Virus record (IMG/VR): IMGVR_UViG_3300047284_000202
Coordinates: 1 to 64,000 of that record
DNA from: a virus
DNA length: 64,000 bases
Direction: 5' to 3' (one strand)
The notes beneath the pieces are model-generated. The model was not told where the DNA came from, did no database searches, and saw nothing but the letters and a program-made list of their open reading frames with translations. The first letter of the stretch is position 1, and each line of letters begins with the position of its first letter. Shown one piece after another: positions 24,885 through 47,757 of this stretch. Position numbers and translations under genes: made by a program.

Positions 24885-25043
24885 ATGACTGACAAAGAGA
24901 TTCAAGATTATTTCTACGATTCTCAAATTTATCAATCTACTGTTGATGAACTAGTCGATAAACTCCATGAACTTATCTCTCAGGGTGATTTCTGCAAAGC
25001 ACAATTGGTTGCTGAGACTATCCGAGAGTTGCAATTGGGATAG
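24885..25043 (+). CDS. 52-residue acidic helical protein overlapping a tRNA
   Basis: ATG 27 bases after the -10 box, with GGAG upstream. Sequence MTDKEIQDYFYDSQIYQSTV then VDKLHELISQGDFCKAQLVA suggests three helices. Its last codons and TAG (25041-25043) are the first seven bases of tRNA-Arg, so processing of the tRNA would remove the stop codon from the mRNA. Function unknown. Confidence 0.6.
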   Translation: MTDKEIQDYFYDSQIYQSTVDELVDKLHELISQGDFCKAQLVAETIRELQLG

Positions 25044-25110
25044 TAGCTCAGTGGAATAGAGCAACTGCCTTCTAAGCAGTCGGTCGATGGTTCGAATCCA
25101 TCCTATCTCG
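25037..25110 (+). tRNA. tRNA-Arg(TCT)
   Basis: Acceptor GGGATAG/CTATCTC, D arm GCTC..GAGC, anticodon loop CTTCTAA, T arm with TTCGAAT. Discriminator G, no encoded CCA. Reads AGA, a codon abundant in this AT-rich genome. Confidence 0.93.
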
Positions 25111-25112
25111 TA

Positions 25113-25200
25113 GTCACGGAGAGACTTAAAAAGTACTGGTGGAGTCAATTTTGACCCTATTATGCCCGTCACGGATGGACGTTAACAGCACTGGTCGGGA
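25113..25200 (+). repeat. Two imperfect direct repeats, 55 bases apart
   Basis: Copy A starts at 25113 and copy B at 25168, both with GTCACGGA. They share GAC-TTAA-A-AG-ACTGGT-G over about 32 bases. Copy A continues into the palindrome GTCAATTTTGAC. The stretch has no gene. It lies between tRNA-Arg and the HNH endonuclease, so it may be debris of insertion events there. Confidence 0.45.
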
Positions 25201-25239
25201 ACCCCCCTACGGAGTTTCTAGTTTCTCTCAAAAACTGGT

Positions 25240-25275
25240 GTATCCTATATAAATAAATATAGTTATATAGGATAC
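25240..25275 (+). promoter_or_regulatory. Late promoter inside a ribosome-site-sequestering hairpin
   Basis: GTATCCTATATAA (25240-25252) and TTATATAGGATAC (25263-25275) are a perfect 13-bp inverted repeat ending one base before the HNH ATG. The right arm contains the only ribosome-site-like AGGA. TATAAATA (25248-25255) sits across the left arm and loop. A read-through transcript would fold and hide the start, while a late transcript starting around 25261 would lack the left arm. The same logic is documented for T4 I-TevI. Confidence 0.65.
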
Positions 25276-25276
25276 A

Positions 25277-25711
25277 ATGGCAACTAGAGAACAAAAGTTA
25301 GAAGCAAAAAGACGCTACTATCAAAAAAATAAAAACAAACTAAACTCAGAATCAAGAGAACTCAATACTAGATTGAGATATGAAAAGAAAAACTTTATCA
25401 TAGAATCTCTTGGATCTAAGTGTTGTGAGTGTGGGATTACTGATTGTCTAGAAATAGATCATATCAATCCTGGATTAAAAAAAGATAGAAGATGTCTTTA
25501 TGTTTGTTCTTGGGACAGAATCAAAAGTGAAATGGACAACCTCCAACTTCTCTGTAGTGCATGTCACCATGAAAGATCTCAACTTCAAAAAGATGCTTCG
25601 TGGTTTTATTTTAAAAATCTTCCCCTAGAAGAACAAAATAAAATAATGAAGCAGTTTAAAGAGGGAGGTTCTAACTTGCCTTCCTGGTCCCCGCAAGATA
25701 AGGGACAATAA
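25277..25711 (+). CDS. HNH endonuclease (candidate homing endonuclease)
   Basis: 144 residues. A basic N-terminal helix (EAKRRYYQKNKNK) precedes the HNH core: KCCECGI, LEIDHINPG and LLCSACHHERSQ, giving two CxxC pairs and the D-H dyad. The family cuts DNA with one metal and often acts as a mobile free-standing homing endonuclease. Its position in a tRNA cluster, the repeats upstream and the T4-like leader hairpin all point that way. The start is fixed by the hairpin. Confidence 0.85.
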   Translation: MATREQKLEAKRRYYQKNKNKLNSESRELNTRLRYEKKNFIIESLGSKCCECGITDCLEIDHINPGLKKDRRCLYVCSWDRIKSEMDNLQLLCSACHHERSQLQKDASWFYFKNLPLEEQNKIMKQFKEGGSNLPSWSPQDKGQ

Positions 25712-25712
25712 A

Positions 25713-25774
25713 AATTCTTGCTGGTGCGGATGGGACTCTCTCCCGCCTGGTTTCCAATTTCCAGTCAAAGAATT
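25713..25774 (+). ncRNA. Candidate structured leader upstream of the CpeT-like gene
   Basis: An outer stem AATTCTT (25713-25719)/AAGAATT (25768-25774) encloses two hairpins: one closed by GGGA/TCCC with flanking GC pairs, and one closed by CTGG/CCAG. Together they form a three-way junction. The palindrome AACTTAAGTT then abuts the ATG at 25799. It could be a cis-acting leader or a remnant RNA gene; no family recognised. Confidence 0.4.
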
Positions 25775-25798
25775 GGTGGCGAGCCTGGAACTTAAGTT

Positions 25799-26242
25799 AT
25801 GGAATTCTCTATTGTTGGACAGTACTTGAATCAAAAACAAGCATTTTCTAACCCTGCTTTTTATGCCATGATTCGTGTCATATATAAACAGGTGGGAGAT
25901 AACAAACTTAAGTCCGAAAACTGGTACGAATATTTGTACCCCTCAGGGGAACCTTATAAACAGGAATATCATTCTTATGATATAATATCCCCTACAGAAG
26001 TTGATTTTCAATCCTATAATATGGACTGGGAACCAACCTGTAAATTTAAGTTCACATGGGATGGGAACTTCTGGGTTGCTGAACCATGTGGTGAGTGCGT
26101 AGTAAAGGATATAAAAATAAACAGTACGGTCAAGTTCAATGATCAGGTTTACATTTCCGAAGATGTAGGTTATGATCGAACAGGAAACGTAGTGTTTGGT
26201 CGAGTGGGAATGCCTTTCATTTTTGATAGGATTCCCATTTGA
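25799..26242 (+). CDS. cpeT: CpeT/CpcT-like phycobiliprotein lyase
   Basis: 147 residues. The pattern VGQYLNQKQAFSNPAFYAMI (G-x-Y-x-N-x-x-Q-A-x-x-N-P), then WYEYLYPSGEPYKQEYHSY, VAEPCGECVV and DVGYDRTGNVVFGRVGMPF matches phage CpeT-family proteins as I remember them. T-type lyases attach phycoerythrobilin or phycocyanobilin to a Cys of the phycobiliprotein beta subunit. Cyanophages of Synechococcus carry such genes, perhaps to keep phycobilisomes working. Substrate is unknown. It lies between tRNA genes, next to an HNH gene. Confidence 0.75.
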   Translation: MEFSIVGQYLNQKQAFSNPAFYAMIRVIYKQVGDNKLKSENWYEYLYPSGEPYKQEYHSYDIISPTEVDFQSYNMDWEPTCKFKFTWDGNFWVAEPCGECVVKDIKINSTVKFNDQVYISEDVGYDRTGNVVFGRVGMPFIFDRIPI

Positions 26243-26247
26243 TTCCT

Positions 26248-26327
26248 GCCCAAGTGGTGAAATTGGTATACACGCTTGACTTAGGATCAAGTGCTTCGGC
26301 GTGGAGGTTCGAGTCCTCTCTTGGGTA
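26248..26327 (+). tRNA. tRNA-Leu(TAG)
   Basis: Acceptor GCCCAAG/CTTGGGT, anticodon loop CTTAGGA, variable arm TGCTTCGGCG of class II type, T loop TTCGAGT. Reads CUA. Discriminator A, no encoded CCA. Confidence 0.92.
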
Positions 26328-26329
26328 TT

Positions 26330-26401
26330 ACTCTGGTAGTCTATTGGTAAGGACGGGTGGACAACACACATGGAAACTAGGTTCGATTCCTAGACAGAGG
26401 A
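26330..26401 (+). pseudogene. Degenerate tRNA-like element
   Basis: Has a good T arm (CTAGG TTCGATT CCTAG), a D arm (GTCT..GGAC) and a 5-bp acceptor core (CTCTG/CAGAG). The anticodon region (GGGTG GACAACA CACAT) pairs poorly and lacks the universal T33, so no anticodon can be assigned. Probably a decayed tRNA. Confidence 0.45.
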
Positions 26402-26423
26402 AATAAGGTAAGGAAAGTAAAAG

Positions 26424-26504
26424 GAGCATGGGAACCGTATGGAGATACCGCACCTGCCTTGTTAACACCCCTCAAGCCTATCAACGATGCTCAAACAGAG
26501 GGGT
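26424..26504 (+). ncRNA. Candidate pseudoknot RNA upstream of tRNA-Gly
   Basis: GAGCAT (26424-26429) pairs with ATGCTC (26487-26492), and ACCCCTC (26467-26473) pairs with GAGGGGT (26498-26504). The two helices interleave as an H-type pseudoknot. A small hairpin GTAT-ggag-ATAC lies inside. It ends five bases before tRNA-Gly and contains no convincing gene. Confidence 0.4.
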
Positions 26505-26508
26505 CACT

Positions 26509-26580
26509 GCGGATTTAATTCAGTGGTAGAATGGCTGCCTTCCAAGCAGTTCGTCAGGGGTTCGAATCCCCTAATCCGCT
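26509..26580 (+). tRNA. tRNA-Gly(TCC)
   Basis: Acceptor GCGGATT/AATCCGC, anticodon loop CTTCCAA, T arm AGGGG TTCGAAT CCCCT. Reads GGA. No encoded CCA. Confidence 0.94.
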
Positions 26581-26595
26581 TGAGTTCTAAACTCT

Positions 26596-26603
26596 TATAA
26601 ATA
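26596..26603 (+). promoter_or_regulatory. Consensus T4-type late promoter TATAAATA
   Basis: Lies 23 bases before the ATG at 26626, between tRNA-Gly and a short gene that ends at a terminator: a self-contained late unit in the tRNA cluster. Confidence 0.55.
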
Positions 26604-26625
26604 AATTCATTAAAGGTCGAAAATC

Positions 26626-26724
26626 ATGAACACTGCATTTATCCAAGAGCATATTAAGTTTAACGATTACCGTTGGTATATCGTGGGAACCCCCTTTTGC
26701 GATAAATCAGTAAAACTTATGTAA
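26626..26724 (+). CDS. 32-residue peptide with its own late promoter
   Basis: ATG behind AAAGGT, TAA at 26722-26724. Sequence begins MNTAFIQEHIKFNDYRWYIV; no family recognised. The support is contextual: consensus late box, ribosome site, short frame and a strong terminator form a complete unit. Confidence 0.4.
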   Translation: MNTAFIQEHIKFNDYRWYIVGTPFCDKSVKLM

Positions 26725-26748
26725 GACCACTGATACATCAGCAAAACT

Positions 26749-26783
26749 TAAGGGGGGCAGGTTGCAAAACCACCCCCCTTTTG
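26749..26783 (+). terminator. Terminator within the tRNA cluster
   Basis: GGGGGG..GGTT, loop GCAA, AACC..CCCCCC, then TTTT. A second hairpin GGTGGG-AGA-CCCACC (26800-26814) follows, without a T tract, just before tRNA-Lys. Confidence 0.75.
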
Positions 26784-26839
26784 CTATGGTAGATTCATCG
26801 GTGGGAGACCCACCAGCACCTCGAAAATTTAAACCTCAT

Positions 26840-26911
26840 GGGTCTGTAACTCAACGGTAGAGTAACGGGCTTTTAACCTGGAAGTTGTGGGTTCGAGTCC
26901 CACCAGACCCA
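26840..26911 (+). tRNA. tRNA-Lys(TTT)
   Basis: Acceptor GGGTCTG/CAGACCC, anticodon loop CTTTTAA, T arm GTGGG TTCGAGT CCCAC. Reads AAA/AAG. No encoded CCA. Confidence 0.92.
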
Positions 26912-26914
26912 TAT

Positions 26915-27005
26915 GAGAGAGTGGCTACTGTTGGCAATACGTGTGGCTGCGGTCTGTAAAACCGTTACATAAGAACCATCGGGGGTTCAATTCCCTCCTC
27001 TCTCA
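26915..27005 (+). tRNA. tRNA-Tyr(GTA)
   Basis: Acceptor GAGAGAG/CTCTCTC, anticodon loop CTGTAAA, long class II variable arm as usual for bacterial tRNA-Tyr, T loop TTCAATT. Discriminator A. Confidence 0.92.
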
Positions 27006-27009
27006 CCTT

Positions 27010-27081
27010 GGCCCTATAGTGAAGTGGCTATCACGCATCTCTGTCCAAGATGTATCACGAGTTCGAATCTCGTTAGGGTCG
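27010..27081 (+). tRNA. tRNA-Asp(GTC)
   Basis: Acceptor GGCCCTA/TAGGGTC, anticodon loop CTGTCCA, T arm ACGAG TTCGAAT CTCGT, discriminator G. Confidence 0.92.
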
Positions 27082-27084
27082 TTG

Positions 27085-27255
27085 AGAGTCAGTATTCTAA
27101 CTCTCACGCATTTCTTAGAGTTTGCCAGTGTGTAGAGAAATGTTGTAGCAAGAACTGGAATTGGGGAGGGATTTCTAACCACCATCGGATGATGGCAGGA
27201 TTCATAAGGCTACGAAGCGTAATCCGTAAGTAACTTCGTGTGGGATACCCCTCCC
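27085..27255 (+). ncRNA. Candidate structured RNA between tRNA-Asp and tRNA-Glu
   Basis: No gene in these 170 bases. Seen: hairpin GAGAGT/ACTCTC (27085-27106), whose right arm can instead pair with AGAGTT near 27117; a domain closed by GGGAGGG (27164-27170)/CCCTCCC (27249-27255); inside it CCATC-ggat-GATGG (27182-27195) and ACGAAG/CTTCGT (27212-27239). No tRNA T arm. It could be a phage small RNA or a processing element. Confidence 0.45.
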
Positions 27256-27259
27256 ATCT

Positions 27260-27331
27260 GGTCCTATCGTCTAGTGGTGAGGACATCACTCTTTCACAGT
27301 GAAGACACGGGTTCAAATCCCGTTAGGACTA
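27260..27331 (+). tRNA. tRNA-Glu(TTC)
   Basis: Acceptor GGTCCTA/TAGGACT (one G-T pair), anticodon loop CTTTCAC, T arm ACGGG TTCAAAT CCCGT. Confidence 0.92.
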
Positions 27332-27334
27332 TAT

Positions 27335-27410
27335 CGGGGAGTAGCTCAGTTGGTAGAGCACATGTCTGAAGAACATGGTGTCGGTGGTTCAATTCCACCC
27401 TCTTCGACCA
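27335..27410 (+). tRNA. tRNA-Phe(GAA), CCA encoded
   Basis: Acceptor CGGGGAG/CTCTTCG with two G-T pairs, anticodon loop CTGAAGA, T loop TTCAATT, then A and an encoded CCA (27408-27410). Confidence 0.92.
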
Positions 27411-27483
27411 GGAAACATAGCTTAGTTGGTAAAGCATTCGACTGATAATCGAAAGAGCACTGGTTCGAGTCCAGTTGTTTCCA
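27411..27483 (+). tRNA. tRNA-Ile(GAT)
   Basis: Begins on the base after tRNA-Phe. Acceptor GGAAACA/TGTTTCC, anticodon loop CTGATAA, T arm ACTGG TTCGAGT CCAGT. Confidence 0.94.
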
Positions 27484-27485
27484 TT

Positions 27486-27568
27486 GGAAGATTGGCAGAG
27501 TGGTTAATGCAGAGGTTTGCTAAACCTTGAGGGTCACACCTCCGTTGGTTCGAATCCAACATCTTCCG
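27486..27568 (+). tRNA. tRNA-Ser(GCT)
   Basis: Acceptor GGAAGAT/ATCTTCC, anticodon loop TTGCTAA, long variable arm (GAGGGTCACACCTCC), T loop TTCGAAT, discriminator G. Confidence 0.94.
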
Positions 27569-27571
27569 TTT

Positions 27572-27645
27572 GGCAGTATAGCTCAGTCTGGTAGAGCACG
27601 GGTCTCATATTCCTATGGACGGTGGTTCAAATCCATCTACTGTCA
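27572..27645 (+). tRNA. tRNA with CAT anticodon (Met or Ile2), weak anticodon stem
   Basis: Acceptor GGCAGTA/TACTGTC, D arm GCTC..GAGC, T loop TTCAAAT, loop CTCATAT. The anticodon stem CGGGT/TCCTA has only three pairs, the terminal ones being C-A and T-T. CAT may be elongator Met or lysidine-modified Ile2; sequence alone does not decide. Confidence 0.75.
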
Positions 27646-27646
27646 T

Positions 27647-27720
27647 GTGACGTTAGCCTAGTGGTAAGGCAGTGGTTTGTGGAACCACCTAGATGGGTTC
27701 AATTCCCATACGTCACCCCA
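27647..27720 (+). tRNA. tRNA-His(GTG), CCA encoded
   Basis: Acceptor GTGACGT/ACGTCAC, anticodon loop TTGTGGA, T arm ATGGG TTCAATT CCCAT, then C and CCA. The C discriminator is typical of His. Confidence 0.93.
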
Positions 27721-27721
27721 T

Positions 27722-27795
27722 TGAGAAATCGTCTAACGGTAGGACACCTCCCTTTGAAGGAGTTTATCTAGGTTCGAGTCCTAGTTTCTCAGCCA
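27722..27795 (+). tRNA. tRNA-Gln(TTG), CCA encoded
   Basis: Acceptor TGAGAAA/TTTCTCA, anticodon loop CTTTGAA, T arm CTAGG TTCGAGT CCTAG, then G and CCA. Confidence 0.93.
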
Positions 27796-27870
27796 GTTGG
27801 GTTGGTCTAATGGTAAGATGCAGGTCTCCAAAACCTTGCGATGGGGGTTCAAATCCCTCACCCTTCGCCA
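27796..27870 (+). tRNA. tRNA-Trp(CCA), CCA encoded
   Basis: Anticodon loop CTCCAAA, T loop TTCAAAT, discriminator G and encoded CCA. The acceptor GTTGGGT/ACCCTTC carries two adjacent T-T mismatches at pairs 2 and 3, an unusual weak spot. Confidence 0.85.
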
Positions 27871-27871
27871 T

Positions 27872-27946
27872 CCTCTCTTAGCTCAGTGGATATAGAGCAC
27901 TTGACTACGGATCAAGGTGTCCTAGGTTCGAATCCTAGAGAGAGGG
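27872..27946 (+). tRNA. tRNA-Arg(ACG)
   Basis: Acceptor CCTCTCT/AGAGAGG, anticodon loop CTACGGA (A34 normally becomes inosine), T arm CTAGG TTCGAAT CCTAG. Confidence 0.93.
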
Positions 27947-27947
27947 C

Positions 27948-27976
27948 TTGACAGACTGCTTCTGGTCTGTTACTAT
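27948..27976 (+). promoter_or_regulatory. Sigma70-type promoter with internal inverted repeat
   Basis: TTGACA (27948-27953), 17-base spacer, TACTAT (27971-27976), two bases after tRNA-Arg. ACAGAC..GTCTGT forms an inverted repeat from the -35 box through the spacer, possibly an operator. Confidence 0.6.
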
Positions 27977-28001
27977 ATACTATGTGATCAGGGACAAATT
28001 T

Positions 28002-28157
28002 ATGTCACTATTATCAAAACAAGATCGAGACCTAACGGTTGAAGCAATTGAGTTCTATCTTTTTAATAAAAAGTTTGATCTCTCTGAGGAGAAAATCATG
28101 CAACTCAATGCCCTTAGGAACTGGATCCAATTAGAAAATTTTAAGCATGAAAATTAA
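28002..28157 (+). CDS. 51-residue hypothetical protein
   Basis: ATG 26 bases after the promoter at 27948. Sequence begins MSLLSKQDRDLTVEAIEFYL; three probable helices, no motif. Overlaps the next gene by 11 bases. A TTG further upstream is inside the promoter and is not favoured. Confidence 0.55.
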   Translation: MSLLSKQDRDLTVEAIEFYLFNKKFDLSEEKIMQLNALRNWIQLENFKHEN

Positions 28158-28320
28158 TCTCTGGTATTGTGAAACGATGAAACAATGGAGGTGGACTCTA
28201 ATTGATGATCATCGTCCAATTGTTAAAATGGAATCTGGTCAACAACCAGATCTTCGAGTAGCAATGAATGACATTGCTACTACTGTTGAATATATGTTAG
28301 AAAATAGTGGGGAAGTGTAA
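28147..28320 (+). CDS. Conserved cyanophage small protein overlapping a tRNA
   Basis: 57 residues starting MKINLWYCETMKQWRWTLID, then MESGQQPDLRVAMNDIATTV. I recall very similar short proteins in other cyanophages; function unknown. The last 15 bases, including TAA, are also the 5' end of tRNA-Met (28306), a second case of a gene ending inside a tRNA. Confidence 0.65.
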   Translation: MKINLWYCETMKQWRWTLIDDHRPIVKMESGQQPDLRVAMNDIATTVEYMLENSGEV

Positions 28321-28380
28321 CGGTTGCACAGAAGTCTCATAAGCTTCAGGTAGATGGTTCAATTCCATCCCCCGCCACCA
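28306..28380 (+). tRNA. tRNA with CAT anticodon (Met or Ile2), CCA encoded
   Basis: Anticodon arm GAAGT CTCATAA GCTTC, T arm GATGG TTCAATT CCATC, acceptor AGTGGGG/CCCCGCC with an A-C mismatch at the first pair, then A and CCA. It lacks the three G-C pairs of an initiator anticodon stem, so elongator Met or Ile2 is more likely. Confidence 0.82.
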
Positions 28381-28386
28381 AATCAT

Positions 28387-28458
28387 TCCCCTATAGCTCA
28401 ACGGCAGAGCAGAGAGCTGTTAACTCTAAGGTTCCTCGTTCGAATCGAGGTGGGGGAG
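28387..28458 (+). tRNA. tRNA-Asn(GTT)
   Basis: Acceptor TCCCCTA/TGGGGGA, anticodon loop CTGTTAA, T loop TTCGAAT, discriminator G. Last tRNA of the main cluster. Confidence 0.93.
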
Positions 28459-28493
28459 TCCGTGTGAAGGAAGTGTTAAAGGAGAAGTAAACT

Positions 28494-30526: not shown

Positions 30527-30588
30527 AATGTTAAGGGATGGAAACATTCTTTAATAATTTATTCCCCCAATTACTCGGAGTATTATCT

Positions 30589-31668
30589 ATGGTTGCTACT
30601 ATTGCTCAACGTAGGCAAGAAAGCACATGGGAACAGTTCTGTGAGTGGGTAACATCAACCGATAACCGTCTTTATGTCGGTTGGTTCGGAGTCCTGATGA
30701 TTCCTTGCCTGCTTGCTGCTACTATCTGTTTCATTGTTGCTTTTATTGCTGCACCTCCCGTCGATATTGACGGTATCCGTGAACCTGTTGCTGGTTCACT
30801 CATGTACGGAAACAACATTATCTCTGGTGCTGTTGTTCCCTCGTCTAATGCTATTGGACTGCACTTTTATCCCATTTGGGAAGCACTTAGCCTCGATGAG
30901 TGGCTATATAATGGTGGACCATTCCAACTGGTCGTCTTCCATTTTCTAATTGGTATCTATGCCTACATGGGTCGTGAATGGGAACTATCTTACCGACTGG
31001 GTATGCGTCCTTGGATTTGTGTTGCCTACTCTGCACCCGTTGCTGCTGCTAGCGCAGTGTTTCTGGTCTATCCCTTCGGTCAAGGATCCTTCTCTGATGC
31101 AATGCCTCTGGGGATTTCGGGAACTTTCAACTACATGCTTGTTTTCCAGGCAGAACACAACATTCTCATGCATCCTTTCCACATGCTGGGAGTTGCTGGG
31201 GTCTTCGGTGGTTCTCTTTTCTCTGCTATGCACGGATCTCTTGTCACCTCTAGTCTTGTACGTGAGACTACAGAAACTGAATCCCAAAACTACGGATACA
31301 AGTTTGGACAAGAAGAAGAGACCTACAACATTGTCGCAGCTCATGGATACTTTGGACGACTCATTTTCCAGTATGCAAGCTTCAACAACAGTCGCAGTCT
31401 TCACTTTTTCCTTGCTGCTTGGCCTGTTGTTGGTATTTGGTTTACTGCTCTTGGTGTTAGCACTATGGCATTCAACTTGAATGGTTTCAACTTTAACCAG
31501 TCGATCGTTGATAGTCAGAACCGTGTGATTCCTACTTGGGCAGACATCCTGAACCGTGGTGGTCTGGGTATGGAAGTGATGCATGAACGTAATGCTCACA
31601 ACTTCCCTCTTGACCTTGCTGCTGCTGATATGACTCCTGTAGCACTCACAGCACCTGCAATCGGTTGA
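30589..31668 (+). CDS. psbA: Photosystem II reaction centre protein D1
   Basis: 359 residues from ATG 30589. This start puts TyrZ at residue 161 and the pheophytin-contact residue at exactly 130, as in canonical D1; ATG 30538 would add 17 hydrophobic residues. Residue 130 is Glu (MGREWELSY), the D1:2-type form. QEFCEW-type start ([12 protein letters not shown]), the [13 protein letters not shown] helix and the C-terminal [10 protein letters not shown] processing region are intact. Phage D1 replaces fast-turning host D1 so photosynthesis continues during infection. No intron is seen. An HNH gene follows. Confidence 0.97.
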
Positions 31669-31681
31669 TACTCGGATTCCT

Positions 31682-31698
31682 AATAAACGACGTTTATT
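31682..31698. repeat. Palindrome after psbA
   Basis: AATAAACG-A-CGTTTATT, 8-bp arms around one base, 14 bases after the psbA stop and before its terminator. Possibly an RNA 3'-end structure or a nuclease recognition site. Confidence 0.4.
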
Positions 31699-31710
31699 GA
31701 GAAAACAACT

Positions 31711-31738
31711 AAACCACTCCTTCGGGGGTGGTTTTTTT
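31711..31738 (+). terminator. psbA terminator
   Basis: AAACCAC..CC, loop TTCG, GG..GTGGTTT and seven T. Ends the psbA transcript. Confidence 0.85.
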
Positions 31739-31743
31739 GTAAC

Positions 31744-31751
31744 AATAAATA
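31744..31751 (+). promoter_or_regulatory. T4-type late promoter box AATAAATA
   Basis: NATAAATA 21 bases before the HNH ATG at 31772, directly after the psbA terminator. Confidence 0.55.
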
Positions 31752-31771
31752 AATGTAAGTTGCAAATACTT

Positions 31772-32146
31772 ATGGGTCCCCAACACTCGTTTAAGTCCTA
31801 CTTGTACAATCTGGAAACAACAAGTAAAGCAGAAGCAAAACGAATGTGGAAAAGAAGTATAAAAGAACAATGGGAACATAAGTGTGCCTACTGTGAGTCA
31901 GAAGAAAATATCACACTAGATCATATTCTTCCTCAGTGTAAGGGTGGACTTGATGTTAAGACTAACGTAGTTGCTTGCTGTCATTCTTGCAATCAGGATA
32001 AGGGACATACACCTTGGGAAGAGTGGTACTTCAATCAACATTTCTTTTCTCATGAAAATTATGAGAAGATTAATAACTGGATGAAACCAGATAGACCTAC
32101 TAATCTTTATGCATATCCACCCAGAAAGAATTACATTCCAAAGTAA
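31772..32146 (+). CDS. HNH endonuclease downstream of psbA
   Basis: 124 residues; ATG 31772 is chosen because the frame upstream runs through the terminator. HNH core: KCAYCESEE, ITLDHILPQCKGG, NVVACCHSCNQDKGHTPWEE, with paired CxxC and D-H. A free-standing HNH gene next to an intronless psbA recalls the homing endonuclease F-CphI reported beside intron-bearing psbA in phage S-PM2. It may promote psbA-region transfer between phages; that is inference. Confidence 0.85.
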   Translation: MGPQHSFKSYLYNLETTSKAEAKRMWKRSIKEQWEHKCAYCESEENITLDHILPQCKGGLDVKTNVVACCHSCNQDKGHTPWEEWYFNQHFFSHENYEKINNWMKPDRPTNLYAYPPRKNYIPK

Positions 32147-32180: not shown

Positions 32181-32525
32181 ATGAGAAATGGAATTAAAGT
32201 GGGTCGTCATGCTATCTTTGAATTATATGGTTGTGAATCATCACTCTTGGATGATGAACAATATATCGTAGATAGTCTTACTAGAGTTGCAGAAGAATTA
32301 GGTGCAACAGTATTGTCCACTTCAAGCCATAAATTTTCACCACAAGGAGTAACAGCAATACTGCTGTTATCGGAAAGTCATATAAGTATTCATACATGGC
32401 CAGAGAAACAATTTGCCACATGTGATATCTTTACTTGTGGAACATGTGTCCCCGAGGATGGAATTGAAATTTTTAAATCAAAGTTCAAAGCAACAGAAAC
32501 AAACTCTATAGTTTTCGATAGATAA
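32181..32525 (+). CDS. speD: S-adenosylmethionine decarboxylase proenzyme
   Basis: 114 residues from ATG 32181; a TTG at 32154 is an alternative. GRHAIFELYGCE starts the fold, and LSESHISIHTWPE contains the Glu-Ser-His self-cleavage site that forms the pyruvoyl cofactor. CDIFTCG follows. The enzyme makes decarboxylated SAM for polyamine synthesis; polyamines condense DNA and affect photosynthesis. A known cyanophage auxiliary gene. Its TAA overlaps the next ATG. Confidence 0.9.
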   Translation: MRNGIKVGRHAIFELYGCESSLLDDEQYIVDSLTRVAEELGATVLSTSSHKFSPQGVTAILLLSESHISIHTWPEKQFATCDIFTCGTCVPEDGIEIFKSKFKATETNSIVFDR

Positions 32526-35482
32526 TGGCAGATACAAACAAAGGACAAACTAATAATCCAGATCAGCATTGTTATACCAATGAGGAACCAACACAAGATG
32601 CTGGTGAATACTATAGAAGTTTTGTGCGTGATCCAAGGACTGTTTTTAGTCCTGCTCCACAAATGCCTGACCCTGTGCGTGGGTTGTCAGATAACTTGGA
32701 TCAACTTTGTTATCCATCTGAAGCACCAATGTCTATTGCTTCTTATGTACCAGAAGAGGAAGGACTTAAATTACCTTCTTTTACTTTCGAAGGTCCAATA
32801 GATATCTGTAAATGGATTCCTGACCTTTGTGATAAACTACCAAAAACATTTTCCATTGACTTTGATGGTGTCAAACCATGCATAGTTCTTGAGGGTGATG
32901 AATGTTATGATCCAACTGAGTGGGATTTTGAACCAAACTCTTGTATTCAAGATGCAATTGAATGTATCTTCAAACCATTTTCTCAGGCTGGTGGATGGTT
33001 GCCAACTGCTTCTGACTGTGACACATTTTATCCACCAGGTTTTAATAGAAACCCAGACAATAAGACTTGTATTTTGAATTGTGTTCCAGAAAGAATTCCA
33101 GTCTATGAATGGAAGTGGAATGGTAGTGATAAAACAGATTACTACTACACAACAAATGAAAATGAAACTCCTTCTGGATATGTGAGAGTTAGACCTGCAT
33201 CATCTGGTGGTTCTGTTGCTAAGATTTCCATCTCCACTGCACAATCTGCTGGTGTATATCAGCAAGGTAATTGGAAAGAGATGAAAATTGACAAGTCATA
33301 TGTCAACGAGGCAGGTAATTTGTGGTGGCCAAGTCTTCCTAATAAAAAATTTGAAGGTAAGTTTAGACTTGGAAATAAAGGTGCAGTGGTCGAGATGATC
33401 ATTGCTGGAAAACGTGATGGTGGTGAATGGGATACCAGATATGTTCTGAAAGGATTTGAGAATAGAGGTGACGGATATACAGTTGGGGAAACATATGAAC
33501 TCAGATCTTTAGATAGTAGTAATACTCTTCTTGGGTATGTTCAAATCTCAGAAATCAAATCCCAAGAACCTAGTTTTTACATTCTCAAAAATGCACAGAT
33601 GAATTCATCTGGAAATGTCGTTCCCCTATATCATCTGTTCTCTTCCAGCAGACAGGATAGTTTGTTAACGACAGATTTATCTGCAGAATCTAATAGAATT
33701 AGTAATGGATCATATGTAGTTAAGGGTATTTTGGGTTATGTTTTCAAGAACAAAGATAATGTAGATGATTATCTTTGTGAAGGTGAGACTATTACTAGTC
33801 TCTATCGTTATTATCAAAGTTCTGCTGCAGGTGGTGGGCAGACTCATGTTGACCATAGGTACAGTACTATTCCCCTTGCTGTTAATGAACAACTAAAACC
33901 AGGTGAGAAAAAGTTATACTATAAAATTCCATTTCAACCTTTGAGTCCTATTATAATTCGTTATAAGGCACAAAGAGGAAGTGCAGGAAAGAAAAGTTCC
34001 TGGGGATATTATTTTGCAAATGAATCTGGAATCCCTCAAGTTGGTTATGTCCTCAGAAAGAACATGACAGACTCTGTTGCATCAGCTAATGTTGAACTAT
34101 CCGTAAATACGTTGTCAACGTATGCTGGTGGATATATTGGATTCTTTTTAATTCCTGGTGGAAATGCAGATACAAATATTTCTGATGGATCTCAGGTAAC
34201 TTTTACTGAGGTCTCAATTAATGGTCAACGAGGATATCGAGCTTATGTGAATGGCAACTTAGTATATGCTAGAGCAGGTGTTTCTGGAAATTCTAATGGA
34301 GGGGAAAATTATATTTTCTTCAGTGATAATCAATTAAATCCATATCAAAAAACCTGGACTCGTTGGAGTGGTAAGATTCAGGGATGGGAGGATTGGTATG
34401 GTGGAGATGATGATTATGATGATATTAAAGTTGACTACAATGTAAAGTGGAAAACTGGTACAAATTACAAGGCAGAAGGAATTCAATGCTATCTGTTTAA
34501 AGATGATGTACTACCAAAAGTTTACATGACATCTCAAGTTAGAGTTGGTTGTGAGGCTGATAGACTATTCAAAACTTCATTTAAAGATCCAATTATAAAA
34601 AGATTAGGATGTGGATCTACGGTTGATGGCACATATCAATCTGGAACTTGCACAGGAAATTATGTTGTAACCACAAACTGTGATCAAACAATCACATGTA
34701 GAATGGATGGTGATATTACATTAATGTCTTGGGGTTGTGATGTTCTCAGTGATTTCAAAGAAACATCTTGGAGAATGAGGTTCACTAAAAATGGTGAATA
34801 TATTTTAGATGAAGTTTATTCCGCAGCAACCTTCCCCAAAAAGGGAAGAGTTTTGCATCCAACATTTGATGTGAAGGCTGGTGATAGTTTGAGGTTTGAA
34901 TTGTTAGAGATTCAATCTGGATCTCCCAATGGAATCGTATTCCCTAAAATTAGTTTGTATGATGAATTGAATGAGATTCATGAATCAGTTATCAACATAA
35001 CTATTAATACAAAATCACATGATACAACATCATACACAACATCAGTTGCTAATGATGGAACTGGCATTAAACAGATTAGAATTGAGAGCAGTGATGGAAC
35101 ACAATCTGTAATTGGATATGATAATAATGCTACTCAAGCATCACTGATTGTAAATGATGGTGATAACTTATGGAGAAAAATTAAAGCATCTGATAGAAAC
35201 GATACTTTATATCAAAGAGTTTCTTATTCTTTCCAGAAGAGTAATCAGGGAACCAATGGTCCTCTCGATGCAATTATTCAAGTTAGAGTTGAACCTGTTA
35301 TGGGATCTAATAATAGATACCAAACAAAAGTCACTATCGAACAGGTAGTATTCAAAGGAAGAGGATTTGCAGTTGGAGATAAAATTGTGTTAGACTGGCC
35401 CAATGCCATGTATGTTGGTACGACAAGGATTCCTCAGAATAAAAAATTTCAATTTAAATTGACAGTAACAGGTGTTAACTAA
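32525..35482 (+). CDS. Large virion structural protein with lectin-like repeats (DUF5648-like)
   Basis: 985 residues. The N-terminal 190 residues are Cys/Pro-rich (DICKWIPDLCDK, NSCIQDAIECIF). From about 195, IPVYEWKWNGSDKTDYYYTT and later VVPLYHLFSSSRQDSLLTT look like two copies of the W/Y-x-F-x-x-x-x-x-D-x-x-x-T-T surface repeat known as DUF5648. The middle is beta-rich with Gly and Tyr (GGDDDYDDIKVDYNVKW), and the C-terminal 350 residues include CGSTVDGTYQSGTC. No signal peptide. Probably a tail- or surface-exposed adhesin; the exact place in the virion is unknown. Confidence 0.6.
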   Translation: MADTNKGQTNNPDQHCYTNEEPTQDAGEYYRSFVRDPRTVFSPAPQMPDPVRGLSDNLDQLCYPSEAPMSIASYVPEEEGLKLPSFTFEGPIDICKWIPDLCDKLPKTFSIDFDGVKPCIVLEGDECYDPTEWDFEPNSCIQDAIECIFKPFSQAGGWLPTASDCDTFYPPGFNRNPDNKTCILNCVPERIPVYEWKWNGSDKTDYYYTTNENETPSGYVRVRPASSGGSVAKISISTAQSAGVYQQGNWKEMKIDKSYVNEAGNLWWPSLPNKKFEGKFRLGNKGAVVEMIIAGKRDGGEWDTRYVLKGFENRGDGYTVGETYELRSLDSSNTLLGYVQISEIKSQEPSFYILKNAQMNSSGNVVPLYHLFSSSRQDSLLTTDLSAESNRISNGSYVVKGILGYVFKNKDNVDDYLCEGETITSLYRYYQSSAAGGGQTHVDHRYSTIPLAVNEQLKPGEKKLYYKIPFQPLSPIIIRYKAQRGSAGKKSSWGYYFANESGIPQVGYVLRKNMTDSVASANVELSVNTLSTYAGGYIGFFLIPGGNADTNISDGSQVTFTEVSINGQRGYRAYVNGNLVYARAGVSGNSNGGENYIFFSDNQLNPYQKTWTRWSGKIQGWEDWYGGDDDYDDIKVDYNVKWKTGTNYKAEGIQCYLFKDDVLPKVYMTSQVRVGCEADRLFKTSFKDPIIKRLGCGSTVDGTYQSGTCTGNYVVTTNCDQTITCRMDGDITLMSWGCDVLSDFKETSWRMRFTKNGEYILDEVYSAATFPKKGRVLHPTFDVKAGDSLRFELLEIQSGSPNGIVFPKISLYDELNEIHESVINITINTKSHDTTSYTTSVANDGTGIKQIRIESSDGTQSVIGYDNNATQASLIVNDGDNLWRKIKASDRNDTLYQRVSYSFQKSNQGTNGPLDAIIQVRVEPVMGSNNRYQTKVTIEQVVFKGRGFAVGDKIVLDWPNAMYVGTTRIPQNKKFQFKLTVTGVN

Positions 35483-35769
35483 TGAATGATTTTAATTTAG
35501 AACCAGAAATTGAATCTGCTGCCAAACGCAACAGTAACTGGGATAGGAAACTTGCAAGTTCGATTATGGAACTTCAGGATCTCCAATCCGTAATGAAAAA
35601 ATATGAAAGTGATCCAGCAGAGATGCGAAAGCAAATCAAAAAGGTAAGAAAGTATCACAAGTCTCCCCTTGCCGCAATTAAAGTTTTGGATATCCCCAAA
35701 GAGAGCTTGACAAATCCTGTGGACCTTGCTATGCTAGATAATGTGGATGAAAATCCATTACAACCTTAA
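35482..35769 (+). CDS. 95-residue charged helical protein
   Basis: ATG overlaps the previous stop; TAA overlaps the next in-frame ATG (TAATG). ASSIMELQDLQSVMKKYESD and EMRKQIKKVRKYHKSP suggest long helices. No function known. A sigma70-type promoter for the porin gene lies near its end. Confidence 0.6.
   Translation: MNDFNLEPEIESAAKRNSNWDRKLASSIMELQDLQSVMKKYESDPAEMRKQIKKVRKYHKSPLAAIKVLDIPKESLTNPVDLAMLDNVDENPLQP
35707..35735 (+). promoter_or_regulatory. Sigma70-type promoter for the porin gene
   Basis: TTGACA (35707-35712), 17-base spacer, TATGCT (35730-35735), 49 bases before ATG 35784. It would allow porin expression early, independently of the late structural operon. Confidence 0.6.
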
Positions 35770-35783
35770 TGATACTAATGTTT

Positions 35784-37262
35784 ATGAAACTCAATCAACT
35801 GATGCTTGCACCTGTTGCTCTGGGAATGGTTGCTCCTGTTGCTGCGAATGCCGCAGACCTTAATATGGCAGCAGTCAATCAATATTCCTCAGAACAGGTT
35901 ACAAGTGTTTCGCAACTGTCTGATGTCCGTCCTACCGATTGGGCATATCAGGCACTCACTAATCTCGTTGACCGTTATGGTTGCGTTGCTGGTTATCCTA
36001 ACGGCACCTATGGTGGTGGTCGTGCTATGACTCGTTATGAGGCAGCAGCACTTCTGAATGCTTGTCTCGATCGTGTGACTGAAGTTACTGATGAACTCAA
36101 ACGTCTTACTAGTGAGTTTGCTGCTGAACTTACTGTTCTTCGTGGTCGTGTTGACGGACTTGAAGCTAAAGTTGGTCAACTGGAAGCAACTCAATTCTCT
36201 ACCACTACCAAACTGAAGGGTGAAGCAAATTTCATTCTCGGTGGTGTTCCTGGTGCTCGTACCACGAACGGTGCTAATGTTGGAAACACTGCTTTCAACT
36301 ATGATCTTCGTCTGAACTTTGATACTTCGTTTACTGGTAAGGACTTGCTCCGTACTCGTCTTCGTTCTGGCAACTTCAGTGCTCAACCTTTCGGTTCCAG
36401 TTCTTCAATCCTGAAACTGGATAAGGCAGAGACTTACGAAAATCAAGTTACTCTTGACCGTCTGTACTACAGTTTCCCTGCACTTGCTAAGGGTGTAACT
36501 CTTACTGCAGGTCCTCTGGTTCGTAACACTGAGATGGCATGGATTCCTACTGCCTACCGTTCAGAAATCCTTGACTTCTTCACCACTGCTGGTGTTCCTG
36601 GTGTCTATAACAAGGCAACTGGAGCTGGTTTCGGTGCTCAGTATGTTCAACCTGGTAAGAAAGGTGGATTTGTTGCTGGTGTAAACTATGTTGCCCAAAA
36701 TGGTGATAACAGTGACACTGGTGTGTTCAATGAGCAAGGTGCTCTGAATACCCTGGCACAAATCGGTTATCGTGCCCCTCAGTACGGTATTGCTTTTGGT
36801 TATCGTTATGGTACTCAAGGCACCCGTGTTCGTACCTACAATGGTCTTCTCGGTGCTAACGGTACTCTTGCTGCTAACCAAACCTCGAATGGTTATGCTG
36901 TGAATGCTTACTGGCAACCCAAGACATCTGGCATCATTCCTTCTGTGAGTGGTGGTTATGGTTGGAACACTGTCAGTGGACCTTCGACTCCTAGAAATGC
37001 AACCAACACCTCTACTTGGTTTGCTGGTCTTCAGTGGAGTGATGTGTTCGGCAAAGGCAATGGTGCTGGTATTGCTTATGGTCAACCTGGCAATGCTGCT
37101 GGTCTCAGTGAGAAAGCTGGTCTGCTTGAAATTTTCTATAAGTATCGTGTAAGTGATAACATCAGCATTACTCCTGCTGTTATCTACGTTGCTAATAACC
37201 AAGCATTCCAAGGTTCTTCCTCTAACTGGGGTGGTGTGATTCAGACGAAGTTTACGTTCTGA
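35784..37262 (+). CDS. Cyanobacterial-type outer-membrane porin (SLH + OprB)
   Basis: 492 residues; ATG 35784 gives the host-like start MKLNQLMLAPVALGMVAPVA with a cleavable signal ending ANA/ADL. ATG 35769, coupled to the previous stop, is the alternative. An SLH domain follows (LSDVRPTDWAYQALTNLVDR, CVAGYPNGTY, MTRYEAAALLNACLDRV), then a periplasmic coiled coil (VLRGRVDGLEAKVGQLEATQ), then a long beta-barrel of the OprB carbohydrate-selective type ending in Phe (VIQTKFTF), the Bam recognition residue. The layout and wording match Synechococcus SomA/SomB porins. Codon use resembles psbA. It is probably host-acquired. It may change nutrient uptake or mask phage receptors; both are inference. 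Confidence 0.9.
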   Translation: MKLNQLMLAPVALGMVAPVAANAADLNMAAVNQYSSEQVTSVSQLSDVRPTDWAYQALTNLVDRYGCVAGYPNGTYGGGRAMTRYEAAALLNACLDRVTEVTDELKRLTSEFAAELTVLRGRVDGLEAKVGQLEATQFSTTTKLKGEANFILGGVPGARTTNGANVGNTAFNYDLRLNFDTSFTGKDLLRTRLRSGNFSAQPFGSSSSILKLDKAETYENQVTLDRLYYSFPALAKGVTLTAGPLVRNTEMAWIPTAYRSEILDFFTTAGVPGVYNKATGAGFGAQYVQPGKKGGFVAGVNYVAQNGDNSDTGVFNEQGALNTLAQIGYRAPQYGIAFGYRYGTQGTRVRTYNGLLGANGTLAANQTSNGYAVNAYWQPKTSGIIPSVSGGYGWNTVSGPSTPRNATNTSTWFAGLQWSDVFGKGNGAGIAYGQPGNAAGLSEKAGLLEIFYKYRVSDNISITPAVIYVANNQAFQGSSSNWGGVIQTKFTF

Positions 37263-37305: not shown

Positions 37306-37322
37306 GTGGTGGTCAAACAAAT

Positions 37323-37407
37323 GGAAGTGTGGCCGAGTGGTTGAAGGCACTTGTCTTGAAAACAAGCATGGTGAAAGCCATCGTGGGTTCGAATCCTACC
37401 ACTTCCG
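37323..37407 (+). tRNA. tRNA-Ser(TGA)
   Basis: Acceptor GGAAGTG/CACTTCC, anticodon loop CTTGAAA, long variable arm, T arm GTGGG TTCGAAT CCTAC. The following 134 bases to tRNA-Pro hold no gene but do hold the inverted repeat TTATCACA/TGTGATAA and a GTAAGT/ACTTAC hairpin. Confidence 0.94.
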
Positions 37408-37541
37408 TTGGTACTCGTTAGGCAGATAGCCTAGAAGGAGACCAAATTATCACATGCGCCTGGAGATAAACTTGTCTGCTGTGATAAGATAGAGGGTAAG
37501 TCACTGTTATATCCTTGAGGTATATCACACTTACTCCATCT

Positions 37542-37615
37542 CGGAATGTAGCTCAGTTTGGTAGAGCACTGCTTTTGGGAAGCAGGGGCCGTAGGTTCGA
37601 ATCCTATCATTCCGA
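37542..37615 (+). tRNA. tRNA-Pro(TGG)
   Basis: Acceptor CGGAATG/CATTCCG, anticodon loop TTTGGGA, T arm GTAGG TTCGAAT CCTAT, discriminator A. Confidence 0.94.
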
Positions 37616-37637
37616 TTCCGTAAATAATGGAGCAAAG

Positions 37638-46626: not shown

Positions 46627-47757
46627 TTACTTTTGAGTTTTTTGTGCTTTTGCATTATCAATCAAAGATTGGGCAACATTTTGAGAAACGAGATTAGTTG
46701 CCTTTTTTCCACCAAAATTTGCTTTTGTTAGCATTGCTGTCTCTTTGAATTGTAGATCTATTTGAACTGCTACAACTCCATAGTCACCTTTGGATGAATT
46801 GTTGTATTCGTTATTTAGATTTTTTAGAGGTGCATATGTACCATCAGGGGTATAATTCACTGACATGCCCTCTAAGACACAAAATGTTGGTAGTTGAATT
46901 AATTTATTTAATGTATAACGATCATCTACACTTGAACTATCTCCAGAACCAATAACTCTAACTAATTCTAATTTGAAAAAGTCTGGAAGAGTCAACCAAC
47001 GTTCAGAACTTACATTCACGTCACCGTTCTTGAATTTGTCAGTTAGATTTCCTTCAAATTGCTCATCAGCACCAACTCCTGCAATTCCAGGGTGCATTGC
47101 ATATCTCAAAGATGCAATGATGTTGTTAATAGTTTCTGCATCTTTGAATGATCTAGCAATTAATTTAAAAGAAAACTGGTGAGATCTGAATTCAGTTCCT
47201 TGGTAGATTAATTCTTTGTATGGATTGAGGATAGCACCTTTGGTTAGTTGAGTTACTCCTTTAGTTGAGAGTGAACTTTCTGTTCCAATTAATTGGTTAA
47301 TACCACCAATAGCACCAGACATTGCGTTGATTGCAACTTCTGGTTTTAAACCTTTTGCAGCATCTTTTAATTCTGATGCCATGGAACCCATATCACTTCT
47401 ACCACTCATCATATTAAGGATGCCAGCACCCAACATTCCAATACTTTCAGTATTATATCCTTGCTGGAATGTTTCTGACAGTTGCTGAGGCATGTATAAA
47501 TAAATGGTGTCACCTCTGCCAATAACATTAGTTGTTCCTGCCAATACAGAATTTAAAGTTGCTCCTGTAGAGTTGTTTCCCCTATTTACGTAATTTGAAT
47601 ATGAATTGCTCTCTGAGTTTATGATTTGAATTTTTAAATAATCTCTTGGCTCGTCACTTAGTTCTGCTGTTCCCTCAATAAAGTTCCTCTGCGGATCATC
47701 TTTAAAACGAAGATCCGCAGGACTTGGATACACATATACTTGACCTGAATCTGCCAT
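46627..47757 (-). CDS. 48: Baseplate tail-tube cap protein gp48
   Basis: 376 residues. VYVYPSPADLRFKDDPQRN and DYLKIQIINSESN start the protein, SHQFSFKLIARSFKDAETIN and LRYAMHPGIAG the middle, and AVQIDLQFKETAMLTK the end, all typical of gp48 in T4-like cyanophages. gp48 sits on the hub and with gp54 starts tube polymerisation. The ATG is two bases from the divergent start of 4. Its likely late promoter (47831-47824) lies inside gene 4. Confidence 0.85.
   Translation of the reverse strand: MADSGQVYVYPSPADLRFKDDPQRNFIEGTAELSDEPRDYLKIQIINSESNSYSNYVNRGNNSTGATLNSVLAGTTNVIGRGDTIYLYMPQQLSETFQQGYNTESIGMLGAGILNMMSGRSDMGSMASELKDAAKGLKPEVAINAMSGAIGGINQLIGTESSLSTKGVTQLTKGAILNPYKELIYQGTEFRSHQFSFKLIARSFKDAETINNIIASLRYAMHPGIAGVGADEQFEGNLTDKFKNGDVNVSSERWLTLPDFFKLELVRVIGSGDSSSVDDRYTLNKLIQLPTFCVLEGMSVNYTPDGTYAPLKNLNNEYNNSSKGDYGVVAVQIDLQFKETAMLTKANFGGKKATNLVSQNVAQSLIDNAKAQKTQK
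47495..47502 (+). promoter_or_regulatory. Consensus late promoter inside 48, antisense to it
   Basis: TATAAATA on the + strand within the - strand gene 48, 264 bases before gene 4. It would start the + strand tail operon with a leader antisense to the first part of 48. Confidence 0.5.

Follow-up and report, generated by a model that had tools for sequence, protein, structure and literature searches.

Why would a cyanophage carry a gene for an outer-membrane porin of the kind made by its host, and what could the protein do during infection? The question is raised by a locus in a 64,000-nucleotide stretch of DNA (the window), which is part of an 87,169-base IMG/VR virus record (IMGVR_UViG_3300047284_000202, positions 1 to 64,000). 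The gene content of the record is that of a T4-like cyanophage and includes DNA polymerase, ribonucleotide reductase (nrdB), baseplate genes, tail genes, psbA, speD, RNase H, thyX and phoH. An initial annotation, made from the window's sequence, had described a host-type porin with its own early promoter and had suggested that it might change nutrient uptake or block superinfection.

The porin gene and its surroundings

The porin closes a run of auxiliary genes on the + strand. Locus L063, cited below, is a relative in which the same 985-aa and 95-aa phage genes stand before the porin.

30538..31668, + strand: psbA (photosystem II D1), opening the auxiliary run psbA, HNH endonuclease, speD, 985-aa gene, 95-aa gene, porin
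31697-32146: HNH endonuclease gene directly 3' of psbA, possibly a homing endonuclease
32525..35482, + strand: 985-aa phage protein (phrog_26996), two genes before the porin, an order common to L063
35482..35769, + strand: 95-aa phage protein (phrog_24392); the same neighbour precedes the porin in L063
35707..35735, + strand: sigma-70-like promoter, TTGACA-N17-TATGCT, inside the 95-aa ORF
35784..37262, + strand: phage-encoded SomB-type porin of 492 aa (signal peptide, SLH, coiled coil, OprB-type barrel, C-terminal Phe), assigned from domain and family matches
37322..37616, + strand: tRNA-Ser(UGA) and tRNA-Pro(UGG), immediately 3' of the porin

Based on these matches, the product is a full-length cyanobacterial SomB-type SLH/OprB porin. 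It scores 304.7 bits against NF033921 (por_somb; curated cut-off 100 bits) across model positions 1-485 of 485, and contains an SLH domain at residues 46-88 (PF00395, 7.9e-7) followed by an OprB domain at residues 104-492 (PF04966, 9.2e-13); none of the PHROG families matches it. By inspection of the sequence, the signal peptide is MKLNQLMLAPVALGMVAPVAANA and the last residue is Phe, and an export signal and a C-terminal aromatic residue are kept in most relatives. The ORF is intact, with an alternative in-frame ATG at 35769 that would add five residues, and dN/dS values of 0.10-0.24 against five relatives show that the gene is under purifying selection. Its codon usage correlates with that of psbA (r = 0.85), compared with r = 0.2-0.35 for structural genes. 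The initial annotation was thus right in describing an intact, phage-encoded, host-type Som porin with psbA-like codons. AlphaFold2, run on an alignment of 20 phage sequences that is too shallow, returned a mean pLDDT of 37; long strands are predicted mainly in the C-terminal half, and a PDB sequence search matched only OmpM-type SLH porins, via the SLH/coil part.

Downstream of the porin lie phrog_275, a T4-like RNase H gene and thyX. At TAATG, the stop codon of the 95-aa ORF overlaps a possible porin start, an arrangement that may couple translation of the porin to that of this ORF. Elsewhere in the window, 17 tRNA genes are clustered in 3.4 kb (25036-28461) and six more are scattered. No pstS was found in the 87-kb contig; a candidate at 47224 scored 14.6 bits, lies within a baseplate gene and was rejected.

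Viral relatives and ancestry

Homologues in cyanophages, for which the initial annotation had proposed a search, proved to be abundant: scans of IMG/VR returned 385 stretches and then at least 576 stretches encoding relatives. A Singapore reservoir yielded the lytic isolate S-SRM01, whose genome includes an 81% identical gene of the same family, annotated 'porin' (QPX48248); this gene differs from the window copy in its genome position and in having the phage leader described below. The porin is therefore a common cyanophage gene, found in hundreds of viral contigs and one isolate. None of the marine isolates in the collection has it. The S-SRM01 paper does not use the word porin in its main text, and our literature search turned up no work on porins encoded by cyanophages. 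S-CREM1 (L083:4935-5813) and S-PM2 (L084:4932-5771) encode the SLH/coil part of the family with no barrel match; these proteins, annotated 'iron uptake porin' and 'S-layer protein', are possibly phage tethers or decoys at the peptidoglycan.

The G+C content of the gene, 46% against 39% for the window, is what a host gene carried along by chance, or joined to the contig in assembly, might show. Such an origin is nevertheless vanishingly improbable given the copy in the complete S-SRM01 genome, the number of viral stretches with relatives, the single main phage clade and the low dN/dS. A chimera with host DNA, a concern of the initial annotation, is excluded by the isolate and the hundreds of viral contigs.

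Among host porins from 151 genomes of a single picocyanobacterial family, the best matches are 60-63% identical to the phage porin. In a tree of 98 rows, 37 non-redundant phage porins form one clade (SH-aLRT 100) nested in a well-supported host clade, and a 34-row tree supports the phage clade at 100/98 and the larger clade at 100/100. Six divergent phage porins (L252, L253, L255-L258) lie at the base of the phage clade. Based on this topology, and on an identity of at most ~63% to any host porin found, the phage porins are an old separate clade and not a recent host acquisition.

Host porins of the larger clade differ in their neighbours. Seven (L131, L132, L135, L138, L140-L142) lie directly upstream of pstS, while L133 and L139 were tested and lie directly upstream of a gene for a FutA-like iron-binding protein; L134, L136 and L137 were grouped as FutA-like-linked from the same gene layout, and L130 adjoins a ferritin gene. 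The 34-row tree does not decide whether the pstS-linked or the iron-linked host group is nearer to the phage clade. Two phage porins, L254 and L260, group with host porins L140 and L141, and a common origin of L254 with the other phage porins was rejected (p-AU 0.004). These two stand apart in the tree, yet they sit in a tail-lysozyme-type phage setting behind the same type of phage leader, which indicates that the porin slot has been filled at least twice.

Gene neighbours, upstream signals and leader RNA

Phage porins occur in several contexts. In one, a tail-lysozyme-like gene is 5' and a Dps gene 3'; in another, GT11/GT25 glycosyltransferase genes are 5' and endolysin genes and a peroxiredoxin gene 3'; a further one, 985-aa gene, 95-aa gene, porin, RNase H, comprises the window and L063. 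Dps-type ferritin genes are close to 31 phage porins, and no futA-like neighbour was seen at the phage porin loci. At 26 of 82 phage loci, pstS lies downstream of the porin on the same strand, with gaps of 36-528 bases except in four near-identical contigs, where an S-adenosylhomocysteine hydrolase gene separates the two; most loci lack an adjacent pstS, and the complete S-SRM01 genome has none anywhere. The order in L253 is GT25-porin-pstS, and that in marine phage S-SM2 is GT25-DUF680-DUF680-pstS-phoA, without a porin. The freshwater-type phage PstS that was tested shares 67-70% identity with several host PstS proteins and no more than 59% with marine phage PstS, a pattern suggestive of separate capture.

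Several other features were observed at these loci. A gene for S-adenosylhomocysteine hydrolase lies between porin and pstS in L071, L074, L075 and L076 (L076:9556-10809), and a peroxiredoxin gene (phrog_2281; L025:11673-12209) is 3' of the porin in glycosyltransferase-type loci. Matches to abiF RNA, PhotoRC-II and wcaG RNA occur near porins (L082:11165-11201, L022:15295-15392, L055:11228-11323, L009:7590-7687), and L012:11731-11816 gives a borderline selenocysteine tRNA match (47.4 bits; gathering score 47).

The sigma-70-like promoter reported by the initial annotation at 35707 is present, although taken alone the pattern does not exceed chance expectation (4 sites against 3.6 expected). It gains support from L063, which has TTGACA-N17-TACACT at the same place in the same gene order, and from the relatives: 30 of the 37 non-redundant phage loci have such a site ahead of the porin, where 0.3 would be expected. 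The 'early' expression claimed with it is suggested by promoter type only.

Many relatives also carry repeats that resemble PhoB boxes. Exact pairs of CTTAA repeats spaced at 11 bp were found upstream of 11 of the 37 porins and of none of 401 other genes from these loci; allowing one mismatch gives 18 of 37 and 12 of 401, and 10 of those 12 precede phage pstS. The box CTTAACCTTCTCTTAGTT lies before DUF680-pstS in P-SSM2, and almost identical boxes lie before the porins of L003, L055 and L072. Host PhoBR is reported to control the P-SSM2 pstS, in work cited in PMC10976474; a passage of the same paper warns that Pho-box predictions in phage genomes are unreliable. No PhoB-box-like repeat was found upstream of the window porin. 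Fur boxes are not enriched upstream of the phage porins (mean best mismatch 8.1 observed, 8.0 shuffled).

The leaders of phage and host porin mRNAs also differ. Of 61 host porins, about three quarters carry 9-10 nt of GTGTGAGGA, the complement of Yfr1, immediately ahead of the start codon, whereas in none of 82 phage porin leaders does the pairing site GUGUGAGGA exceed 6 nt; the comparison used the conserved Yfr1 core. Only 1 of the 82 phage leaders has a Shine-Dalgarno-like motif. A search for the host Yfr1 gene that required a TTTTTT tail gave no match; a looser pattern, in which ACTCCTCACAC precedes a G+C hairpin and TTTT, was found in two host genomes, with a weaker match in a third. In Prochlorococcus, Yfr1 targets two porin mRNAs (PMC6778093). 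The absence of the pairing site from the phage leaders suggests that phage porin mRNA would escape host Yfr1 control.

A hairpin whose 11-nt, CAACTACT-type loop is conserved recurs in 26 phage leaders, located as follows.

L082:11934-11968 (also L055, L021, L022, L051 and other loci): leader hairpin, ~40-95 bases before the porin start

The hairpin covaries: among 19 distinct sequences, both partners vary together in the stem pairs that adjoin the invariant ones (CG/TA, GC/AT, CG/GC/AT/TA). Whole-record searches of seven phages found it exactly once per record, before the porin. Among the loci searched, a second element, GTCGTTTAGTAC, was found only before porins. Neither the hairpin nor GTCGTTTAGTAC is in the window, and an Rfam search with the porin leaders of eight loci matched no family.

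Function of the phage porin

The barrel of the phage proteins differs in charge from that of host porins. The C-terminal 355 residues have a mean net charge of +9.2 in phage porins against -10 in host porins. Loss of acidic residues accounts for much of this shift, which is seen neither in the SLH/coil part nor in PstS. Host pstS/Fut-type porins carry less negative charge than most paralogues in the same genome, a comparison that makes habitat less likely as the cause of the shift. A basic barrel fits an anion-attracting pore, the whole-barrel charge being a proxy and not the charge of the pore. The idea that the second capture (L254/L260) gained positive charge convergently was set aside, as its host neighbours are already at +3 and +8.

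Compared with the SomB or 'iron uptake porin' family (NF033921), the phage proteins are thus alike in full-length match, domain order, signal peptide and terminal Phe, and their clade differs from the host members in identity, barrel charge, lack of the Yfr1 site and, in most phages, a phage-specific 5' leader. With the pstS-adjacent porins of Synechococcus/Cyanobium type they share the order and strand of porin and pstS (in the 26 loci) and the larger clade, but form a separate branch. Some of them resemble the PhoBR-controlled phosphate genes of cyanophages (pstS, phoA, DUF680 gp247) in the pstS neighbour, the Pho-box-like repeats or a GT25 adjacency as in S-SM2; as a group they differ in their proposed action at the outer membrane and in their absence from the marine isolates.

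We lean towards the phage porin being an auxiliary gene that would keep the outer membrane open to phosphate (anions) during infection. Phosphate is favoured by the pstS linkage, the PhoB-like boxes and the barrel charge. The nearest host porins found show the same arrangement, with pstS immediately 3', and in some loci porin-pstS stands behind GT25, as DUF680-pstS does in S-SM2. Marine picocyanobacteria increase phosphate porins under starvation (PMC7250820). Against this reading, the window contig lacks pstS, Pho box and phage leader, most loci lack an adjacent pstS, and S-SRM01 lacks the gene altogether; the family's NCBI name, the host Fut-type relatives and the Dps genes near 31 porins point elsewhere. 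Among the roles suggested in the initial annotation, phosphate uptake is the one these data favour; nitrate and sugar gain nothing, and a block to superinfection has only indirect support, from adjacent surface glycosyltransferases.

We infer insertion into the outer membrane, selectivity for anions or phosphate, and PhoB control. The phage-made porin would enter the outer membrane of an infected freshwater picocyanobacterium and let small anions, above all phosphate, keep reaching the periplasm during phage DNA synthesis. Where the next gene encodes a phage PstS, as in many relatives, that protein would bind phosphate and deliver it to the PstCAB pump of the host. The repeats that resemble PhoB boxes would let host PhoBR raise porin expression in phosphate-starved cells and, without a Yfr1 pairing site, the phage mRNA would avoid the repression of host porins. 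The window copy would be the same porin relocated in the genome, with a sigma-70-like promoter and no Pho box.

The Dps genes and the FutA-like neighbours of one host sister group, which include a permease, would fit a porin that lets more iron or another metal into the periplasm to supply the Fut system of the host, while nearby phage Dps stores or detoxifies the metal. Another host porin pair adjoins a ferritin gene, and NF033921 is named 'iron uptake porin', but that name spans the whole paralogous family. Fur boxes are not enriched, the phage loci have pstS and no futA-like neighbour, and a positive barrel suits anions more than iron cations. We regard iron as unlikely, though the foremost of the alternatives to phosphate. 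Next to it, and also improbable, is general support of the envelope, in which host porin synthesis stops and an SLH-tethered phage porin of no special substrate keeps the outer membrane attached and broadly permeable. An SLH/coil part like that of solved OmpM-type SLH porins, the missing Yfr1 site and psbA-like codon usage all agree with this, but it leaves the pstS linkage, the PhoB-like boxes and the charge shift unexplained.

Least probable of the three is that the phage porin displaces host porins used as receptors and so excludes superinfecting phages, alongside phage glycosyltransferases that alter the surface. GT11 and GT25 genes are directly upstream in many loci, and there is a precedent: E. 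coli phage PA-2 encodes the porin Lc, which is linked to exclusion of OmpC-dependent phages. The initial annotation's statement that no role had been described for a phage-borne porin was therefore too strong. PA-2 is, however, a lambdoid prophage, and Lc is an unrelated enterobacterial porin without an SLH domain that serves exclusion rather than nutrient uptake. A T4-like lytic phage has little time for exclusion, neither pstS linkage nor PhoB-like boxes would be expected, and S-SM2 has GT25 beside DUF680-pstS without a porin.

Building on the phosphate reading, we propose more tentatively that freshwater cyanophages may own a full phosphate route from outer membrane to periplasm (porin and PstS). 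The porin would have been reshaped, with an anion-attracting barrel, no Yfr1 site and a phage-specific leader, and its slot taken again, at least once, by a host porin that was captured independently and lies behind the same leader type (L254/L260). Known cyanophage phosphate genes work in the periplasm or cytoplasm; the porin would add a step at the outer membrane, where diffusion can limit uptake at low phosphate. Cyanophage control of phosphate entry at this membrane had not been described in the literature searched. The porin also offers a natural case of a viral mRNA without a host small-RNA control site but with a leader of its own, and makes it testable whether phages set the permeability of the host envelope.
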